Shown here piece after piece: positions 12,607 through 26,114 of a DNA stretch of 38,443 bases. Made by a program: the position numbers and the translations under genes. Location of the stretch: positions 1-38,443 of the forward strand of contig CALYAM010000003.1 in NCBI GenBank assembly GCA_944393565.1. The letters run 5' to 3'. Each line of letters starts with the position of its first letter. Position 1 is the first letter of the stretch. The notes under the pieces are model-generated. The model saw nothing but the letters and a program-made list of their open reading frames with translations, was not told the origin of the DNA and ran no database searches. The stretch is from an uncultured Clostridia bacterium. GTDB lineage: Bacteria > Bacillota > Clostridia > TANB77 > CAG-508.

Positions 12607-13011
12607 ATGAGTAAACTTTATAAGAAGTATAAAGAACTTAAATATAAAAATCCAGATTCTGTCATCTTATTTAAAAGTGGAATTTTCTATATAGCTTTAG
12701 AAAATGATGCTATATTTTTGTCTGAAAAATTAGGTTTAAAACTATCTTTTTTTAACAATGAAATATCAAAGTGTGGTTTTCCTGTTTCTCGTTTTTCATT
12801 TTACAGTCACTTATTAAATGAGCTTTCTATACCATATGTTGTTTTTGATTCACAATCGTCACTTTCTCCTTATGATATTAATCAGGCTGAATTAAATAGT
12901 GTTATTTCATATATTCTAAGTCTAAATTTGAATTGTATTACTTATCGTGAATCTTTTGATATACTTCAGAGAATTCAAGAAATGCTAAAAAAAAATTTAC
13001 GCGGAGGGTAA
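12607..13011 (+). CDS. MutS domain I-like DGR accessory protein (MSL type)
   Basis: A 134-residue stand-alone version of the MutS mismatch-recognition domain. YKELKYKNPDSVILFKSGIF aligns with the MutS start (Y..LK...P..LLF..GDFYE), DAIFLSEKLGLKLSF with the DA...S..L...L segment, CGFPVSRFSFYSHLLNE with the AG(I/V)PYHA...YL.KL segment, and IPYVVFD with the strand ending in ICE. MutS domains II-V, including the ATPase, are missing. In the Phe-X-Glu motif that probes mismatches, Phe is kept but the sequence is GIFYIAL, so Glu is Ile. As I recall, MutS-like (MSL) open reading frames have been reported with DGRs. RBS GGGAGG. The stop is 6 bp before avd. It may act on mismatched cDNA/target duplexes, which is inference. 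Confidence 0.75.
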   Translation: MSKLYKKYKELKYKNPDSVILFKSGIFYIALENDAIFLSEKLGLKLSFFNNEISKCGFPVSRFSFYSHLLNELSIPYVVFDSQSSLSPYDINQAELNSVISYILSLNLNCITYRESFDILQRIQEMLKKNLRGG

Positions 13012-13019
13012 AATTTAAA

Positions 13020-13382
13020 ATGTCAGGAAATAAACAGACTAATCTTATTATTTACCAAAAATATCTTGAAATGATTTACTATACAAATGATTTAGTTAGG
13101 AAGTATCCAAAATCGGAGACTTTTGCTTTGGTGGAAGAAATTAAACATACCATGTACTCAGGTTTACGTCTTCTAATATATGGTTTAAAGCTTTACAATA
13201 TAAAAGAGAAATTAAAGTATTTGAATGAGCTTGATATAAATTTAAACTTAATGAAAGTGCATATACGCCTTTCTTATAAGTATCACCATATTAGTATGCA
13301 AAATTATACAACGTGGAGTAATAAAATCACTGAAATTTGTAATTTATTAGGAGGTCTTATAAACTCATGCCTAAAAAGATAA
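13020..13382 (+). CDS. avd: DGR accessory variability determinant Avd
   Basis: Avd is the small four-helix-bundle partner (bAvd fold) that binds DGR reverse transcriptase and template RNA and is needed for mutagenic homing. The 120-residue protein is almost all helix with typical spacing: TNLIIYQKYLEMIYYTNDLVRKYPKSE (helix 1), ALVEEIKHTMYSGLRLLIYGLK (helix 2), IKEKLKYLNELDINLNLMKVHIRLSY (helix 3) and YTTWSNKITEICNLLGGLINS (helix 4), matching the Avd pattern. It lies directly upstream of the RT and overlaps its start by 16 bp, the usual avd-RT order. Confidence 0.9.
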   Translation: MSGNKQTNLIIYQKYLEMIYYTNDLVRKYPKSETFALVEEIKHTMYSGLRLLIYGLKLYNIKEKLKYLNELDINLNLMKVHIRLSYKYHHISMQNYTTWSNKITEICNLLGGLINSCLKR

Positions 13383-14401
13383 AAAATTGCTTCGACAAAA
13401 ATATTAATTTTTCGAAATTTTTGTCAGCTTTTTACAGAGCCAAAAAGCAAAAGACATATAAAAATGAAGTAATACAATTTGAAATGAATTTAGAAAATAA
13501 TTTGATAAATCTTATGAATAAAATTAAAAACAACGTATATAAATTAGGAAACTATTATCAATTTAAGATATATGAGCCAAAAGAAAGAATAATCCAAGCT
13601 TTGCCGTTTGTTGATCGTATTGTGCATCAATGGTATGTAGAAGAATTCATTAAGCCATATATTGTTCCCAAATTTATTTTTGCTTCATATGCATGTTTAA
13701 GCAATAAAGGTACTCATAAAGCTGTTGATGATTTACAAAAGCAAATGAGGATAATGTGGCGAAACACAAAAAATTTCTGGATTTTAAAGTGTGATATAAA
13801 AAAGTTTTTTAATTCTATAAGCCCTAACATTTTGTATTCTATTATGCAAAAATACATAAAAGATAAAAAGCTTTTAAGATTTACAAAACTTCTTATTTTC
13901 TGTAATAGAGGCTCAGCCGAAGTTGGAATTCCTATTGGAAATTATACATCTCAATTTTTTGCCAATATTTATCTTACTGAACTTGATTATTATATTAAAC
14001 GCGATTTAAAAATTCGTTTTTATGTACGTTACATGGATGATTTTATTTTGTTATTAAATACAAAAGAAGAATGTAGAACTATAAAAAAGAAAATTGATGA
14101 TTTTTTAAATAATAAACTTTTATTAGAACTTAATTATAAATCTCGATATTACCCGTTTTCAATGGGTGTTAATTTTTGTGGTTATAGAATCTTTACAACA
14201 CATAGGTTGCTTAGAAATTCATCAAAGAAAAAAATAAAAAATAATGTTAAAAAGTGGAACAAGCTTTGGGCAAAAAATAATCTTTCTTTTCCAGATACCA
14301 TTCAAAGCTTAAATTCATGGCTTGGTCATGCTTCTCATTGTAACTCATATCATTTGCAGCAAAAAGTATTAAGCAAGTGTAATTTTTTGTACAAATTATA
14401 A
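13367..14401 (+). CDS. DGR-type reverse transcriptase
   Basis: RNA-directed DNA polymerase that copies the template repeat with adenine-specific errors. The 344-residue protein has the RT domains in order: PFVDRIVHQWYVEEFI (motif 1-2 region), LKCDIKKFFNSIS (motif 3, first Asp), GIPIGNYTSQFFANIYL (motif 4; the DGR hallmark [I/V/L]GxxxSQ in place of the retroviral QG), YVRYMDDFILL (motif 5, YMDD) and GVNFCGYRIF (motif 6-7). No maturase, endonuclease or integrase domain is present, which argues against a group II intron. Start ATG at 13367 follows AGGAGGTC. The gene is last in its operon and points toward the template repeat, converging with the target gene. Confidence 0.97.
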   Translation: MPKKIKNCFDKNINFSKFLSAFYRAKKQKTYKNEVIQFEMNLENNLINLMNKIKNNVYKLGNYYQFKIYEPKERIIQALPFVDRIVHQWYVEEFIKPYIVPKFIFASYACLSNKGTHKAVDDLQKQMRIMWRNTKNFWILKCDIKKFFNSISPNILYSIMQKYIKDKKLLRFTKLLIFCNRGSAEVGIPIGNYTSQFFANIYLTELDYYIKRDLKIRFYVRYMDDFILLLNTKEECRTIKKKIDDFLNNKLLLELNYKSRYYPFSMGVNFCGYRIFTTHRLLRNSSKKKIKNNVKKWNKLWAKNNLSFPDTIQSLNSWLGHASHCNSYHLQQKVLSKCNFLYKL

Positions 14402-14615
14402 GAGGGTAACTCAAAAAGTGCCCCCTTAATTATATTTTTAAAAATTTTAGTTTCAAGCTTTGGACTTTCACATATGTTACTAGAACAAAACTTTTTTTCA
14501 TGTGTTTATCTCTTATGAGAAAGGAATTAAATTTCTTGAATCCCAAAACTATTCGGAATTTTCCGTAAAAAACTCCCCTCTAAGTCTCTGCTATATTGCA
14601 GATATACTGCATTCA

Positions 14616-14768
14616 AGTACTACACACCGAGCACCGGGCGGAAGCCATAGTTGTTGTTCGTACCGCCGTTTGCGTTGTTGAAAGCAAACACACCTGCGCC
14701 AGAACCGTTATTGAAATTGCCACCACGAAGGAAAAACGGGTTCTCGAGGTAAGGAAAGTTAGCGTAGT
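14616..14768 (-). repeat. DGR template repeat (TR)
   Basis: A 153-bp segment repeated at 14870-15022 with 19 differences, all at positions that are A in TR on the minus (coding) strand. Read in the target frame it encodes 11 Asn and 3 Tyr codons that are all altered in VR. It is GC-rich against flanks of ~25-30% GC. It is 101 bp past VR and 214 bp past the RT stop; the gap 14402-14615 holds no gene, only short hairpins such as TGCAG-ATATA-CTGCA near 14598. TR and VR point the same way (minus), opposite to the RT. Confidence 0.95.
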
Positions 14769-14782
14769 ACAATTTAATCCCT

Positions 14783-14811
14783 ATTATATATAAAAATTTT
14801 TCCCGTATTTT
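14783..14811 (-). promoter_or_regulatory. weak candidate promoter for TR RNA
   Basis: On the minus strand a perfect TATAAT (14783-14788) lies 15 bp before the TR boundary, so a start would fall near the first TR base. The -35 position holds only AAAATA, so this is weak. Read-through from the target gene is the alternative source of TR RNA. Confidence 0.3.
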
Positions 14812-14869
14812 TATTTTTATGCTTTTTTTATTAACTGCCGAAAAAAGACAAGCAGATTTTCAGTGTTAT

Positions 14870-15022
14870 AGTACTACACACCGAGCACCGGGCGGAAGCC
14901 ACAGCCGCTGCCCGTACCGCCGCCCGCGTCGTAGAAAGCAAACACACCTGCGCCAGAACCGTAAAAGAAATAGCCACCACGAAGGAAAAACGGGTCCTCG
15001 AGGCAAGGAAAGTAAGCGCAGT
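14870..15022 (-). repeat. DGR variable repeat (VR) at the 3' end of the target gene
   Basis: VR covers the last ~49 codons of the target gene and its stop (14874-14876). The 29 bp at its 3' (stop-side) end are identical to TR and very GC-rich, in the place of the initiation-of-mutagenic-homing (IMH) sequence. Substitutions versus TR, in the coding sense, are 13 A-to-G and 6 A-to-T; none is at C, G or T. Resulting changes include Asn to Tyr, Asp, Gly, Ser and Phe, and Tyr to Cys. Confidence 0.95.
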
Positions 15023-16523
15023 CATAATTCCATGATAACCCCCATGTTATTCCTGCATCATTTCGGCTAGTCTCCCATATTGCATCTCCATATTTGTTAC
15101 TATTTGCCTGATAATTTGCTTTCCTATCCGTTTCATTGTCTGCTACTCCTGTTCCTGCATATTCTTGTTTTTCGCCTAGTTCTAAATTCCTAAAATATTC
15201 TACATAGCTCGTTGTTCCATTTGTTAGATAACTTGCCATGTATTCCCATGCCCCTCCTGATAAGTCATATATTCCATATATGTTTCCTGTACTACTTCCT
15301 CTTTGCCCTTCTTCTGTTTGGTATCTATAATATGTTCTTGTATATGGGCTTCCACTTTCACTTCCATCTTCTGCATAATTTTGATATGTTATACTTATTG
15401 TCTCTGAATTGCTTTTATCTATATCTCCTATTGCTTTACTTGATGCTGATATGGCTTCGTCTCTGCTACTTCCTACCATTCCTGTCATTGTTGTATAATA
15501 TAAATTGTGTTTGTATGTTGCATTTGCATTTTCTACTATGTCTCCCTCATAATATGGGTTTGCCCATACTCCTGAGCTTGCATTCGCATTTGTTTGCTTG
15601 TTTCCATAATCGCTTTGTGTTAAATATGCTATCGCTCCCCATTCACTGTTCTTCATCATATGTGCTTCTATTCCTCTTAGTCCATGTATGTTTCCTTCTG
15701 CTGTCATCCTTTTACATGCTTCATATATTTGCTGAACTGTTATCGCCCTCCAACTTGTTACATTTGGTCTTATTGTTATTTCATCTGTTTCATTATTCGT
15801 CCTTCCATATTTTACTCCTAAATTTGGGTTTTCTTCTGTTGTTGTGTTACTACTTGCTTCAAATTTTCCTACCCAAAATCCTGTTATTTCTTTCCTTCCA
15901 CCGTTTTCTGCTTCTCCTGTAAATGCTGGATGTACTACATATTCTTCTCCATTTGTTTGGTTACTCCTTATTGCTTCCCCTCCTTTATACTTATCTTCTA
16001 CTCCATATAGAAATTGTATCTCTATTTCTCCTTCTATTGGCAAGCTTGCCTCTTCTTCTGGATGATATCCTTTTGTTATTTTATATGCATATCTTGGTAT
16101 CCATACATACATCCCTATTATATCTTCTTCTAATATACTACTCCCTGTTCCTGCTGCTTTGTATTCTTCCCTTTTTGCTTCCTTTACTGTTACTGCATTT
16201 GCCCATTTCTTATTTTGGGTATCATATTCATACCAATTCTTATCTTTGTTACTACTATCTGCTTTTTTCCACCCATTTTCATAATATACCGGTATCATTC
16301 CTTCTCCTAGTTTTGGTGGATTTACTCCTTCTGCTTCTGCTTCTAATTTTGCTAGTACTTCTTCTTCCTCCATTACTTTTTCATTCCACTCTCTTGCTGC
16401 TTCTTCTGCTTTTTCTATTAATCCTTCTGCAGTTATTGCTAAACTTATTGCCACTCCTGCTAATATTAATAACACTATTATTGTTATTACTAAGCTTACT
16501 AGCGTTATTCCTGCTTTTCTCAT
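14874..16523 (-). CDS. DGR target: prepilin-like anchored protein with FGE/C-type-lectin-like variable domain
   Basis: A 549-residue surface protein candidate. The N-terminus RKAGITLVSLVITIIVLLIL is a type IV prepilin-like signal: short basic leader, Gly, then a hydrophobic helix that would be cut by prepilin peptidase. A charged helix follows (EKAEEAAREWNEKVMEEEE, residues 37-55), then a linker. The C-terminal ~400 residues resemble the formylglycine-generating-enzyme-like / C-type-lectin fold used by many DGR targets: GFWVGKFEAS, WRAITVQQIYEACKRM, MKNSEWGAIAYLTQS, GIYDLSGGAWEYMASY, ending FRPVLGV. Variable residues lie within the last 50. RBS AAGGAGGAAAG; sigma-A promoter at 16612-16640. 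It is probably a diversified ligand-binding protein; enzymatic activity is not expected. Confidence 0.92.
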   Translation of the reverse strand: MRKAGITLVSLVITIIVLLILAGVAISLAITAEGLIEKAEEAAREWNEKVMEEEEVLAKLEAEAEGVNPPKLGEGMIPVYYENGWKKADSSNKDKNWYEYDTQNKKWANAVTVKEAKREEYKAAGTGSSILEEDIIGMYVWIPRYAYKITKGYHPEEEASLPIEGEIEIQFLYGVEDKYKGGEAIRSNQTNGEEYVVHPAFTGEAENGGRKEITGFWVGKFEASSNTTTEENPNLGVKYGRTNNETDEITIRPNVTSWRAITVQQIYEACKRMTAEGNIHGLRGIEAHMMKNSEWGAIAYLTQSDYGNKQTNANASSGVWANPYYEGDIVENANATYKHNLYYTTMTGMVGSSRDEAISASSKAIGDIDKSNSETISITYQNYAEDGSESGSPYTRTYYRYQTEEGQRGSSTGNIYGIYDLSGGAWEYMASYLTNGTTSYVEYFRNLELGEKQEYAGTGVADNETDRKANYQANSNKYGDAIWETSRNDAGITWGLSWNYDCAYFPCLEDPFFLRGGYFFYGSGAGVFAFYDAGGGTGSGCGFRPVLGV

Positions 16524-16719: not shown

Positions 16720-17061
16720 ATGAAAACTAGCAAAAAGCTAAATATTAAAATTGGTCACATTTTGCAAACAACACGTAAATCATTGGGCTATACTCAAGAG
16801 CAATTTGCAGAAAAACTTGATTTGGGACCTAGATTTATTTCTGATATAGAGCGTGATAAAACAAAAGGAAGTATTGATACTTTAGTTAAGTTATGTAATA
16901 TTTACAATGTTACACCTACTTTTATTTTACAAGATTATATAGACTCTGTTGATGTCCCAAGTGATGAAAGTATTATTGGATTTTATCAATTAGATGAGTC
17001 TGATAAAGACATTATTCGTCAATTAATTTCTTATATGAACCAAAAAAAGAGAAAAAAATAA
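16720..17061 (+). CDS. XRE-family transcriptional regulator
   Basis: A 113-residue Cro/CI-type regulator. IGHILQTTRKSLGYTQEQFA and KLDLGPRFISDIERDKTKGS hold the helix-turn-helix (residues ~10-50), followed by LVKLCNIYNVTPTFILQDYI and a C-terminal part ending in a Lys/Arg run. The start follows GGTGAT. The gene is divergent from the DGR target gene with a 196-bp shared control region carrying an inverted repeat over the target promoter, so regulation of the target is likely but inferred. Confidence 0.88.
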   Translation: MKTSKKLNIKIGHILQTTRKSLGYTQEQFAEKLDLGPRFISDIERDKTKGSIDTLVKLCNIYNVTPTFILQDYIDSVDVPSDESIIGFYQLDESDKDIIRQLISYMNQKKRKK

Positions 17062-23067: not shown

Positions 23068-24018
23068 CTATATGTTTTTTATTTTATTATATCGAATATA
23101 AGCTATTGCACCTATAATTATTGTTACAAATATTGCTGGTATAATATAATCATTTATACCTGCATATGGCAATTTATCATTATCTGATATATTTACGATT
23201 TGATTTGTATTTGTATTTGTATTTGTATTTGTATTTGTATTTGTATTTGTGTTTGTATTTGTGTTTGTATTTGTGTTTGTATTTGTATTTGTGTTTGTAT
23301 TTGTATTCGTGTTTGTGTTTGTATTTGTGTTTGTGTTTGTGTTTGTGTTCGTATTTGTGTTTGTGTTTGTGTTCGTATTTGTATTTGTATTTGTGTTTGT
23401 ATTTGTGTTTGTGTTCGTATTTGTGTTTGTATTTGTGTTTGTGTTCGTATTTGTGTTTGTATTTGTATTTGTGTTTGTATTTGTATTCGTATTTGTGTTT
23501 GTATTTGTATCAGGAGCAGGTGTTGTAGATTGATATACTATTTTTAAAGTTCCCGTTACATCTCCAATTGAAATATCCTCTTCTGCATTAGAGCAACTAA
23601 TTTCTGTTAATGTAATTTGGGTATTCCCCAGTTTAGCTGTATCTAACACTCTGAAGGTAATTTCAAATACAACATTGTCTACTTTTATTAGGTCTGCTGC
23701 TGTTCTCTCAACAACAAATAGCCCTTCATTTTCATTATATGTAACAGATGCCCATCCATTACCACTTGAAATACTTGCTTGCATAACTTTTTCAAATACA
23801 GTTTCATCATATCCTATTCTTCCCATCATTGAGCCAAGTCCTGGTTCAACTTGTATGTTAGATAGTACAAAAGATATTTTTATTGTTTCCCCTGGTTTTA
23901 CTTCTGCTGTATCTGCTTGCATAGTTACCTCATAAGTCCCTGCTGCAAAAATTTTATTTACCGTTAAAGCTAATATTGTAACTGCAACTATTAATATAAT
24001 TAAAGTTTTTCTTTTCAT
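23068..24018 (-). CDS. cell-wall-anchored cohesin-domain protein with Thr-Asn stalk
   Basis: A 316-residue surface anchor. It has a signal peptide (MKRKTLIILIVAVTILALTV...FAAG, ~1-26), a cohesin-like beta domain at ~28-160 (VKPGETIKISFVLSNIQ, GRIGYDETVFEKV, VVFEITFRVLD, NTQITLTEISCSNAEEDI), then 51 uninterrupted Thr-Asn pairs (residues 171-272). The C-terminus carries LPYAG (about 283-287), a hydrophobic segment (YIIPAIFVTIIIGAIAYI) and a basic tail, the plan of a sortase signal although LPYAG is not the classic LPxTG. It lies 77 bp downstream of a dockerin-bearing protease, its probable docking partner. Cohesin assignment is by pattern, not by alignment. Confidence 0.8.
   Translation of the reverse strand: MKRKTLIILIVAVTILALTVNKIFAAGTYEVTMQADTAEVKPGETIKISFVLSNIQVEPGLGSMMGRIGYDETVFEKVMQASISSGNGWASVTYNENEGLFVVERTAADLIKVDNVVFEITFRVLDTAKLGNTQITLTEISCSNAEEDISIGDVTGTLKIVYQSTTPAPDTNTNTNTNTNTNTNTNTNTNTNTNTNTNTNTNTNTNTNTNTNTNTNTNTNTNTNTNTNTNTNTNTNTNTNTNTNTNTNTNTNTNTNTNTNTNTNTNTNTNTNQIVNISDNDKLPYAGINDYIIPAIFVTIIIGAIAYIRYNKIKNI
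23203..23508. repeat. hexanucleotide repeat coding for (Thr-Asn)51
   Basis: A 306-bp run of 51 six-base units, plus-strand ATTTGT with GTTTGT and occasional TCGT variants. All differences are synonymous (Asn AAT/AAC, Thr ACA/ACG), so the repeat is kept at the protein level. The unit length of 6 preserves the frame when copies are gained or lost. Apparent open reading frames on the plus strand here are by-products of the repeat. Confidence 0.95.
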
Positions 24019-24095
24019 ATGTATCTCCTCTTTTATTTTTATATTTTATATTATATTCCATTTATATTAATAAATCAACATATTTTGTATAATTA

Positions 24096-26114
24096 TCAAA
24101 AGTTTCCAAAGTTAGTAATTTTACATATTACTTGCTTTATTTGTAATAGGTCTGATGGTGTTATTCCACCACTAAAATTTACATCTCCAGCTTGCTTGTA
24201 TTCTTCTTCAAGATTTTCGATATTTACAAGATCCCTTTTTATTTTTAATAAATCTGTAGCTGTTATGTCTCCATCTCCATTGACATCTCCTACTACAACT
24301 ATTTTGTATGAATTATTTGTCTGCAATAATTTAAGTTCCATACCAGTTCCCACTATATCATTCTCTTGCATTTCATTACCATATATATCATATACTTTTA
24401 ATGTATCTTCAGATGTAAAATTGTTTAGAAAATTCATTACATTTGTTCCTGGTAACACTTTTTTTATTTGTTTCTTGTTTTGTTCTATCTCATATTGTTC
24501 GGTTTTTATTAATGTTTTTTCTATATATTCATCAACTGTAAATGCTTTAATACATGCATTTACATTGCTTCTTCCATTCAACTGAAGATTAATTAGGTCT
24601 TCCCACTGGTTTCCATCAAATGATCCATAGCTTTCTCCTGAATTACTTTTCGCTGTTTCCCACATTGTATTTTCAATTCTTGATTCTACCGGTGCAGATA
24701 CTCCCTCACTGTTGCCTATATATTTAATGCAAACTACAAATTCTCTTCCTGTAATTTTCACTGGATTGTCTAGTGTCACTGTAATATAATTAGAATTTGT
24801 TTTTCCTATTGATTTTACTTTTACTAAGTCATTTGTATTTAGTACACTATTATTGGCATTTATATAAATTTCATACCCTTCATTATATGTATTATAAAAT
24901 GAAACTTCTGTTAAGTAACTTATCTCATTTTTATTTTTGTATACATTAGCAAGCCACATCTCTTGCTTTTCATCTGTATATATACTATCATTTGCTCCCA
25001 AAGGGTCATATTGGTATATATCATCGTATTTTATGTCGTCTAATTGTATTATTCCAGACATGTATGTTTCAATTAAATAATCATCATACGATACATATAA
25101 ATAGCCATTGTCAAATACAGGCTGTACTCCGTCTTCTGTTTCAACTTGTGTTCCATAGGAATTTTGGACAATCCAAGCTCCAGTTGATTTTGGTCTATGT
25201 TCCTCATTAAAGTTGTATATAGAATAATCATCATCCCATCCTACTATTGCTACTTGATGATTTGCTTCTATATTCTCATTATCACAATAATAAGCTTTTG
25301 AATTTAAAAAATTTACTTGATTGCTAAAAAATTCTTTGTGTTCTGCATTTATAACTGCCAATACGCTTCCATATTGCATAATGTGTTCTTTAACATTATT
25401 TCTAAATTCTATTATCTGGTCTTTAGTATATTCTATATATTCACCTGAGGTCTGACCATTTGAATATATAATTTCTCCATTTTTTGTTTCTTTATAAATA
25501 TTTGGAAAAGAAATAAATTCTTTGAGGTGAGCCACAGTCTCTTTCCCTTCGATTTCTGATAAATATATTTTTTTACTATTATTTTCAAATGGCATGTCCT
25601 CTTCTATAACTGGGCCTCTTCCACTTGTTAAATATGCATATGCAATATTAAAATTTCCTCCTGCATCTATTTCTCTATTATGTCCTTGTTCATTAATCCC
25701 ATCTATAAATGTTTTTGCAGTAGAATATTCAATATGCCTAGTTGAATATTCTACATTTGTTGACTTTACCTTAGCCATGTAGCTTTCTAGTTGTGTAGTA
25801 GTTGCCATTGCCCAGCATTGGTTGGTATCCATTTGGTTTTTTACCTTTAGATTTATTGTGTCTAATAAGTTGTATTTTGAGTTTATACTCAAAAGTCTTA
25901 TATTTCTTTTTGCCAAATTATTGTTTGTATTGATTTCTTTTACATACATAGCTGGAGGAATAGTTTTAGCCTTTTCTTCTTCAGATAAACCTAACCATTG
26001 TATATATTTATCACTATATTTGCTTGTCTCAACATTAAAATTAGATGCTATAACTTGATTTGTAGTATTTAGCAAGCAATAAAGCATTAATGTACATATA
26101 ATAATTTTTTTCAT
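24096..26114 (-). CDS. secreted papain-like (C1A) cysteine protease with C-terminal dockerin
   Basis: A 672-residue exported enzyme. It has a signal peptide (KKIIICTLMLYCLLNTTNQVIA) and a C1 peptidase domain from ~90 with the active-site segment NQMDTNQCWAMATTTQLESY (oxyanion Gln and nucleophile Cys), His in ANHQVAIVGWDDDY (~290) and Asn in WIVQNSYG. A beta-rich domain follows (~390-520). The C-terminus is a type I dockerin: two Ca-binding repeats, GDVNGDGDITATDLLKIKRDL and GDVNFSGGITPSDLLQIKQV. It is likely held on the cell by the cohesin protein encoded next. Start ATG at 26114 follows GAGGAG. Confidence 0.93.
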   Translation of the reverse strand: MKKIIICTLMLYCLLNTTNQVIASNFNVETSKYSDKYIQWLGLSEEEKAKTIPPAMYVKEINTNNNLAKRNIRLLSINSKYNLLDTINLKVKNQMDTNQCWAMATTTQLESYMAKVKSTNVEYSTRHIEYSTAKTFIDGINEQGHNREIDAGGNFNIAYAYLTSGRGPVIEEDMPFENNSKKIYLSEIEGKETVAHLKEFISFPNIYKETKNGEIIYSNGQTSGEYIEYTKDQIIEFRNNVKEHIMQYGSVLAVINAEHKEFFSNQVNFLNSKAYYCDNENIEANHQVAIVGWDDDYSIYNFNEEHRPKSTGAWIVQNSYGTQVETEDGVQPVFDNGYLYVSYDDYLIETYMSGIIQLDDIKYDDIYQYDPLGANDSIYTDEKQEMWLANVYKNKNEISYLTEVSFYNTYNEGYEIYINANNSVLNTNDLVKVKSIGKTNSNYITVTLDNPVKITGREFVVCIKYIGNSEGVSAPVESRIENTMWETAKSNSGESYGSFDGNQWEDLINLQLNGRSNVNACIKAFTVDEYIEKTLIKTEQYEIEQNKKQIKKVLPGTNVMNFLNNFTSEDTLKVYDIYGNEMQENDIVGTGMELKLLQTNNSYKIVVVGDVNGDGDITATDLLKIKRDLVNIENLEEEYKQAGDVNFSGGITPSDLLQIKQVICKITNFGNF

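Follow-up and report, generated by a model that had tools for sequence, protein, structure and literature searches.

A probable complete DGR in inverted layout, with a pilin-like target, in an uncultured gut Clostridia bacterium

In the genome assembly of an uncultured Clostridia bacterium (GCA_944393565.1), two neighboring 153-bp repeats differ from each other at adenines alone. They lie in a stretch of 38,443 nucleotides (contig CALYAM010000003.1, positions 1 to 38,443; hereafter the window), and they raise the question of whether they belong to a complete and working diversity-generating retroelement (DGR), which protein that DGR would diversify, and where the variable part of this protein would be displayed. 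DGRs are a well-known kind of system, present here in the rarer reversed layout. The reading that we favor, at a probability of roughly 0.88, is that the window holds a complete chromosomal inverted DGR that diversifies the lectin-fold domain of a pilin-like target.

The repeat pair and the genes of the cassette

The two repeats were compared without gaps, at an offset of 254, and were read on the minus strand. The features of the pair are as follows.

14616..14768, minus strand: template repeat (TR), 153 bp with 32 adenines
14870..15022, minus strand: variable repeat (VR), forming the 3' end of the target gene, with 19 A-site changes
14616..14646, minus strand: candidate IMH* region, the TR 3' end without any TR/VR difference, read from the alignment

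All 19 TR/VR differences fall on template adenines (13 A>G, 6 A>T and no A>C), and none of the 121 non-A positions of the TR differs in the VR. For 19 random differences, the chance of all landing on the 32 adenines among 153 bases is 4e-16. A recount thus agrees exactly with the original prediction, which had placed all 19 differences at template A (13 A-to-G and 6 A-to-T) and none elsewhere; it was correct in reading the pattern as an adenine-specific DGR signature, and all known parts of such a system are present and unbroken. It had also stated that all 14 Asn/Tyr codons are altered, which the target frame bears out: each of the 14 encodes another residue in the VR, namely Tyr, Phe, Asp, Gly, Ser or, in three Tyr>Cys changes that had been omitted, Cys. 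One Ala codon is changed silently (GCA>GCG), the changes create no stop codon, and the VR ends at the stop codon of the target. The description of the signature as saturated has to be withdrawn, as 13 of the 32 template adenines are unchanged; the changed share in the window (19 of 32, or 0.59) is the third highest among 44 loci with a TR/VR pair (range 0.26-0.72). Elsewhere in the genome assembly, the VR is the sole other high-identity match to the TR (88%), followed by matches of 74% and 71%. The last 31 bp are identical in TR and VR, and the 3' flank of the VR is partly conserved among relatives; no clear stem-loop was seen there.

Four genes on the plus strand accompany the repeats, three of them on the TR side and one beyond the target.

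12607..13011, plus strand: MutS-domain-I protein, 134 aa, a likely DGR accessory (Pfam MutS_I, 5.9e-11)
13020..13382, plus strand: Avd (accessory variability determinant), 120 aa (Pfam bAvd, 70.7 bits, cut-off 40)
13367..14401, plus strand: reverse transcriptase (RT), 344 aa, intact (Pfam RVT_1, 4.4e-16; PIGNYTSQ, YMDD)
16720..17061, plus strand: XRE-type HTH regulator, possible cassette member (Pfam HTH_3)

The translated RT contains both the (I/L/V)GxxxSQ motif, in the form PIGNYTSQ, and the catalytic YxDD, in the form YMDD. The Avd is matched by two further profiles, PHROG Avd (3.6e-23) and NCBIfam DivGenRetAVD, the latter at 71 bits and so below its cut-off of 80. Judging by the sequence, the DGR is complete and probably functional. 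The order of MutS-domain-I protein, Avd and RT is kept in nearly all of 80 related loci from uncultured Clostridia and Bacilli (RTs 49-71% identical), and independent A-specific TR/VR pairs are found in more than 40 related loci. RT matches at E 1e-30 or better occur in 142 of the 292 genomes sampled from the family. Closer to the window, only one of four congeners has an RT match, a distant RT (34%) beside phage-tail-like genes, and in congener G003 murA adjoins the topoisomerase gene without any DGR between them, so that the cassette was either gained here or lost in G003. The XRE-type regulator lies beyond the target in five relatives (55-71% identity); it is absent from three congeners that are without the RT, and it may belong to the DGR cassette.

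Some further genes were encountered alongside these. Congener G004 has a DGR-like locus, beside phage-tail-like genes, whose RT lies about 2.3 kb from a MutS-domain-I protein (L245:1790-2227); this protein is separated from Avd. A second RT with AIGNYTSQ (L001, C8:49956-50741) is cut by a contig end, and no template was seen near it. Two neighboring genes of the window, at 23068-26114, may form a small cohesin-dockerin pair: one encodes a cohesin-domain protein whose linker is a long Asn-Thr repeat, the other a papain-like protease that carries a dockerin domain.

Strand layout and the structured template-RNA spacer

The RT is encoded on the plus strand, and TR, VR and target all lie on the minus strand, which constitutes an inverted layout. 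The 'inverted' DGR type was described from three gammaproteobacteria (PMC3521204). The inverted DGRs of Shewanella, Vibrio and Photobacterium (Schillinger et al. 2012, PMC3521204), to which the present locus is likened by layout, have the same arrangement of strands and long repeats with 18-21 A changes, as here, but they belong to Gammaproteobacteria, whereas the present system comes from gut Clostridia and has an Avd, a MutS-domain-I protein and a prepilin-like target. In an RT tree with 29 inverted and 24 direct rows, two layout changes are needed; a group of Clostridia is inverted (support 86, not starred) and the Bacilli are direct. The RT of highest identity to that of the window (71%) belongs to locus L039, which is of direct layout. 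Just after this RT there is a partial spacer-RNA match on the minus strand (L039:2804-2858, 35.5 bits), perhaps the remnant of an earlier inverted layout.

The stretch between the TR and the RT gene is conserved among inverted relatives on the minus strand, and it includes a structured element. A second conserved element lies at the other end of the TR.

14451..14620, minus strand: structured template-RNA spacer 3' of the TR (Rfam RT-14, own model, covariation)
14769..14783, minus strand: conserved motif just 5' of the TR, TAGGGATTAAATTGT in the window (alignment of 25 loci)

The relatives carry this motif as TAGGGATTAAACTGT, which stands 5' of the TR in nearly all inverted loci in the alignment of 25 loci. 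The spacer (14455-14596) matches the whole of Rfam RT-14 (RF02921), model positions 1-144 of 144, with 70.1 bits against a cut-off of 48.1; this entry bears only that name and is here tied to a DGR template. Locus L044 also matches Rfam RT-14. In an alignment of spacer RNAs from 15 loci, 94.7% of cells pair, a figure that is favored by the derivation of the structure from the same alignment; the two-sided changes, which occur in 30 of 43 pairs compared with 15.1 in shuffles, are not explained by that. The covariation score is 0.465, against 0.13 or less in slid controls. The structure includes a long helix in which the end of the TR and the first flanking bases pair with a downstream strand of the spacer.

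Our own RNA model gives 111 bits for the window spacer, lower than for most inverted relatives. Its matches follow the strand of TR and VR: minus where the locus is inverted, plus where it is direct. At E 0.001, the spacer RNA is found in 52 of the 292 genomes of the family survey, several of which have copies on different contigs. Matches of the RNA model to viral DGR loci are weak (best E 0.0026), and the viral contigs searched contain no exact copy of the TR end.

The locus also resembles the DGR of Bordetella phage BPP-1, in its RT, Avd and TR, in adenine-specific changes that fall at the target's 3' end, in having a structured spacer 3' of the TR (PMC12875486), and in a target fold related to the C-type-lectin target Mtd (Z ~10). 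BPP-1, however, has TR and RT on one strand, whereas they are on opposed strands in the window, where the target is moreover chromosomal and pilin-like and a MutS-domain-I protein is added. In BPP-1, the folded spacer 3' of the TR brings in RT-Avd and serves to prime cDNA synthesis (PMC12875486). By analogy, we infer that the window spacer plays a similar part in RT-Avd recruitment and cDNA priming.

The following course of events is proposed on this basis. The TR and its structured 3' spacer would be transcribed from the minus strand, opposite the RT gene; the interval between VR and TR showed no promoter-like site on that strand, so that read-through from the target gene is possible. The RT-Avd complex would bind the spacer RNA and prime cDNA at the 3' end of the TR, as in BPP-1. 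The RT would misread template adenines, giving mostly A>G and A>T, and homing of the cDNA would replace the VR, with which the target gene ends. In this way, the C-type-lectin fold would keep its scaffold and the 14 Asn/Tyr positions would vary, in a domain that would be displayed outside the cell, possibly on a pilus.

The target protein and its location

The protein that carries the VR is encoded on the same strand as the repeats.

14874..16523, minus strand: target gene, 549 aa, with a prepilin-like N-terminus and a C-type-lectin/FGE-fold C-terminal domain holding the VR (model, TaqVP match)

The C-terminal 485 residues, modeled with 29 aligned sequences, reach a pLDDT of 81. Their best solved fold match is TaqVP, a DGR variable protein of Thermus aquaticus (PDB 5vf4; 20% identity, Foldseek 3.4e-8, Z 19.3 over 273 residues), with further matches to FGE-like proteins and to two other proteins of DGRs, TvpA (Z 12.0) and Mtd (Z ~10). 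In comparison with TaqVP, the window protein has a prepilin-like N-terminus added. A model of the full-length target has a pLDDT of 57.7 and no fold match.

The first 30 residues of the target resemble the start of a class III prepilin. Because of this prepilin-like N-terminus and the presence of a type IV pilus operon in the genome, the variable domain is probably displayed outside the cell, and it is perhaps carried on a pilus. The latter location is uncertain, since the N_methyl model has no match in the window target and the target is without Glu5. These two absences also speak for a different arrangement, to which we give a little less than even weight: instead of being carried on a pilus, the lectin domain would act at the surface of the cell, on a protein whose N-terminal helix serves only as a membrane anchor. 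The Bacilli relatives, in which the same kind of C-terminal domain is found on other membrane anchors, point in the same direction. A GITL-type start in most inverted-clade targets and the weak N_methyl matches in 9 of 17 alignment members of these targets, however, argue against this arrangement, as does a 69-aa pilin of the type IV pilus operon (contig C17) that has nearly the same start as the target and an N_methyl match above the cut-off. Some minor pseudopilins are without Glu5 and occupy a cap-like position. Should the target be on a pilus, our guess by analogy would be a cap-like position, which would fit its lack of Glu5.

Paralogous targets occur on three contigs of the assembly, with 88% protein identity to the window target in the case of contig C5.

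L027:3852-5564, L028:3365-5560 and L029:2856-4629, on contigs C5, C13 and C17: paralogous pilin-like targets with VR-like ends

A frame shift splits the C17 paralogue, which sits within the type IV pilus operon. The C5 gene has about 600 nearly identical bases in common with the window target, and its VR differs from the window TR at non-A sites too. The C5, C13 and C17 paralogues were considered as recently copied targets of the window TR and were rejected because they show non-A differences too. A search of the assembly with the VR of the C5 gene and the RNA model found no second template. The DGRs of Treponema denticola, a spirochaete where the present host belongs to Clostridia, include a remote target whose VR fits another TR, and a left-over VR in this species matches the TR of another strain (PMC4891356). 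The simplest reading of the C5 VR is that it derives from a second template that has been lost.

Activity of the system and template arrays in relatives

The original prediction had concluded that the system is active or very recently active. With its parts intact, present activity of the window DGR is likely, but the absence of non-A changes says less than was claimed: the in-frame non-A sites correspond to about 31 synonymous-equivalent sites, and with none of them changed, silent divergence is bounded only to about 10%. As retrohoming overwrites the whole VR, zero non-A differences mean that the last homing was recent relative to point mutation, and no more. Zero non-A changes are also seen in 33 of the 44 loci, a rate that cannot count as independent, because the TR/VR pairs were picked by a score that rewards A-specific differences.

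It would be conceivable, and we regard it as rather improbable, that the DGR is intact but silent, the VR being the frozen product of an earlier burst that is kept by purifying selection on the domain. A single consensus sequence is at hand, and such a history would fit within the bound of about 10% on silent divergence; the VR of the C5 paralogue, which no present template explains, implies that targets can be left behind. The unbroken state of all genes and of the spacer RNA argues against silence, as do the zero non-A changes in most relatives, and likely present activity is the reading that we retain.

Among inverted relatives, the first A of AAY triplets is changed in 63% of cases, the second in 45% and other adenines in 17%, and the counts pooled over inverted loci are highest for A>G (215), followed by A>T (124) and A>C (62). 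BPP-1 in E. coli favors misincorporation of C, which is equivalent to A>G, and disfavors G in most contexts (PMC12875486). Hence, the lack of A>C among the 19 changes of the window is unremarkable. Adenine deamination, or ordinary divergence under diversifying selection, without reverse transcription can be set aside as exceedingly improbable. Of the 19 changes, 13 are the A>G that deamination gives, but the six A>T are not possible by this route, none of the 44 template T's is changed, one A>G is silent, and DGR genes and a spacer RNA adjoin the repeats.

The window locus has a single template and no array. In several relatives, the RNA model finds spacer-RNA copies in a row.

L066:3345-7647: TR-plus-spacer-RNA array, 8 copies
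L069:9107-12132: TR-plus-spacer-RNA array, 4 copies
L104:663-4531: TR-plus-spacer-RNA array, at least 11 copies
L086:3103-9439: TR-plus-spacer-RNA array, many copies, partly with weak scores

A TR-like stretch precedes nearly every spacer-RNA copy examined. In the two loci tested, the VR has 2 (L066) or 1 (L069) non-A mismatches to one template and 8-23 to the others. Differences between templates within arrays involve A in 63-68%, compared with 44-52% expected from composition, and in the array spacers the share of A is as expected, except in L096, which has four spacer differences only. This pattern is compatible with array templates being rewritten through the same mutagenic process. Alternatively, the A-rich differences among them may stem from selection on Asn codons. 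Several TRs in individuals are likewise known from T. denticola, in whose metagenomes 'multiple TRs' were described (PMC4891356). We put forward, as a tentative and rather doubtful suggestion, that the spacer RNA may turn the template into a portable unit and that the system may choose among stored templates and also rewrite them, so that they would form a heritable template library in place of one fixed template.

These results describe what is probably a clean, complete DGR with a pilin-like target in a very small gut Clostridia genome, and they indicate that the reversed layout is not a rarity but the rule across a whole clade of gut Clostridia RTs. With RT-14 linked to the DGR spacer, templates can be sought by their RNA even where the RT is not known, and orphan and tandem ones come within reach. 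Should the template arrays be confirmed, one fixed template per target would not be the limit for a DGR.
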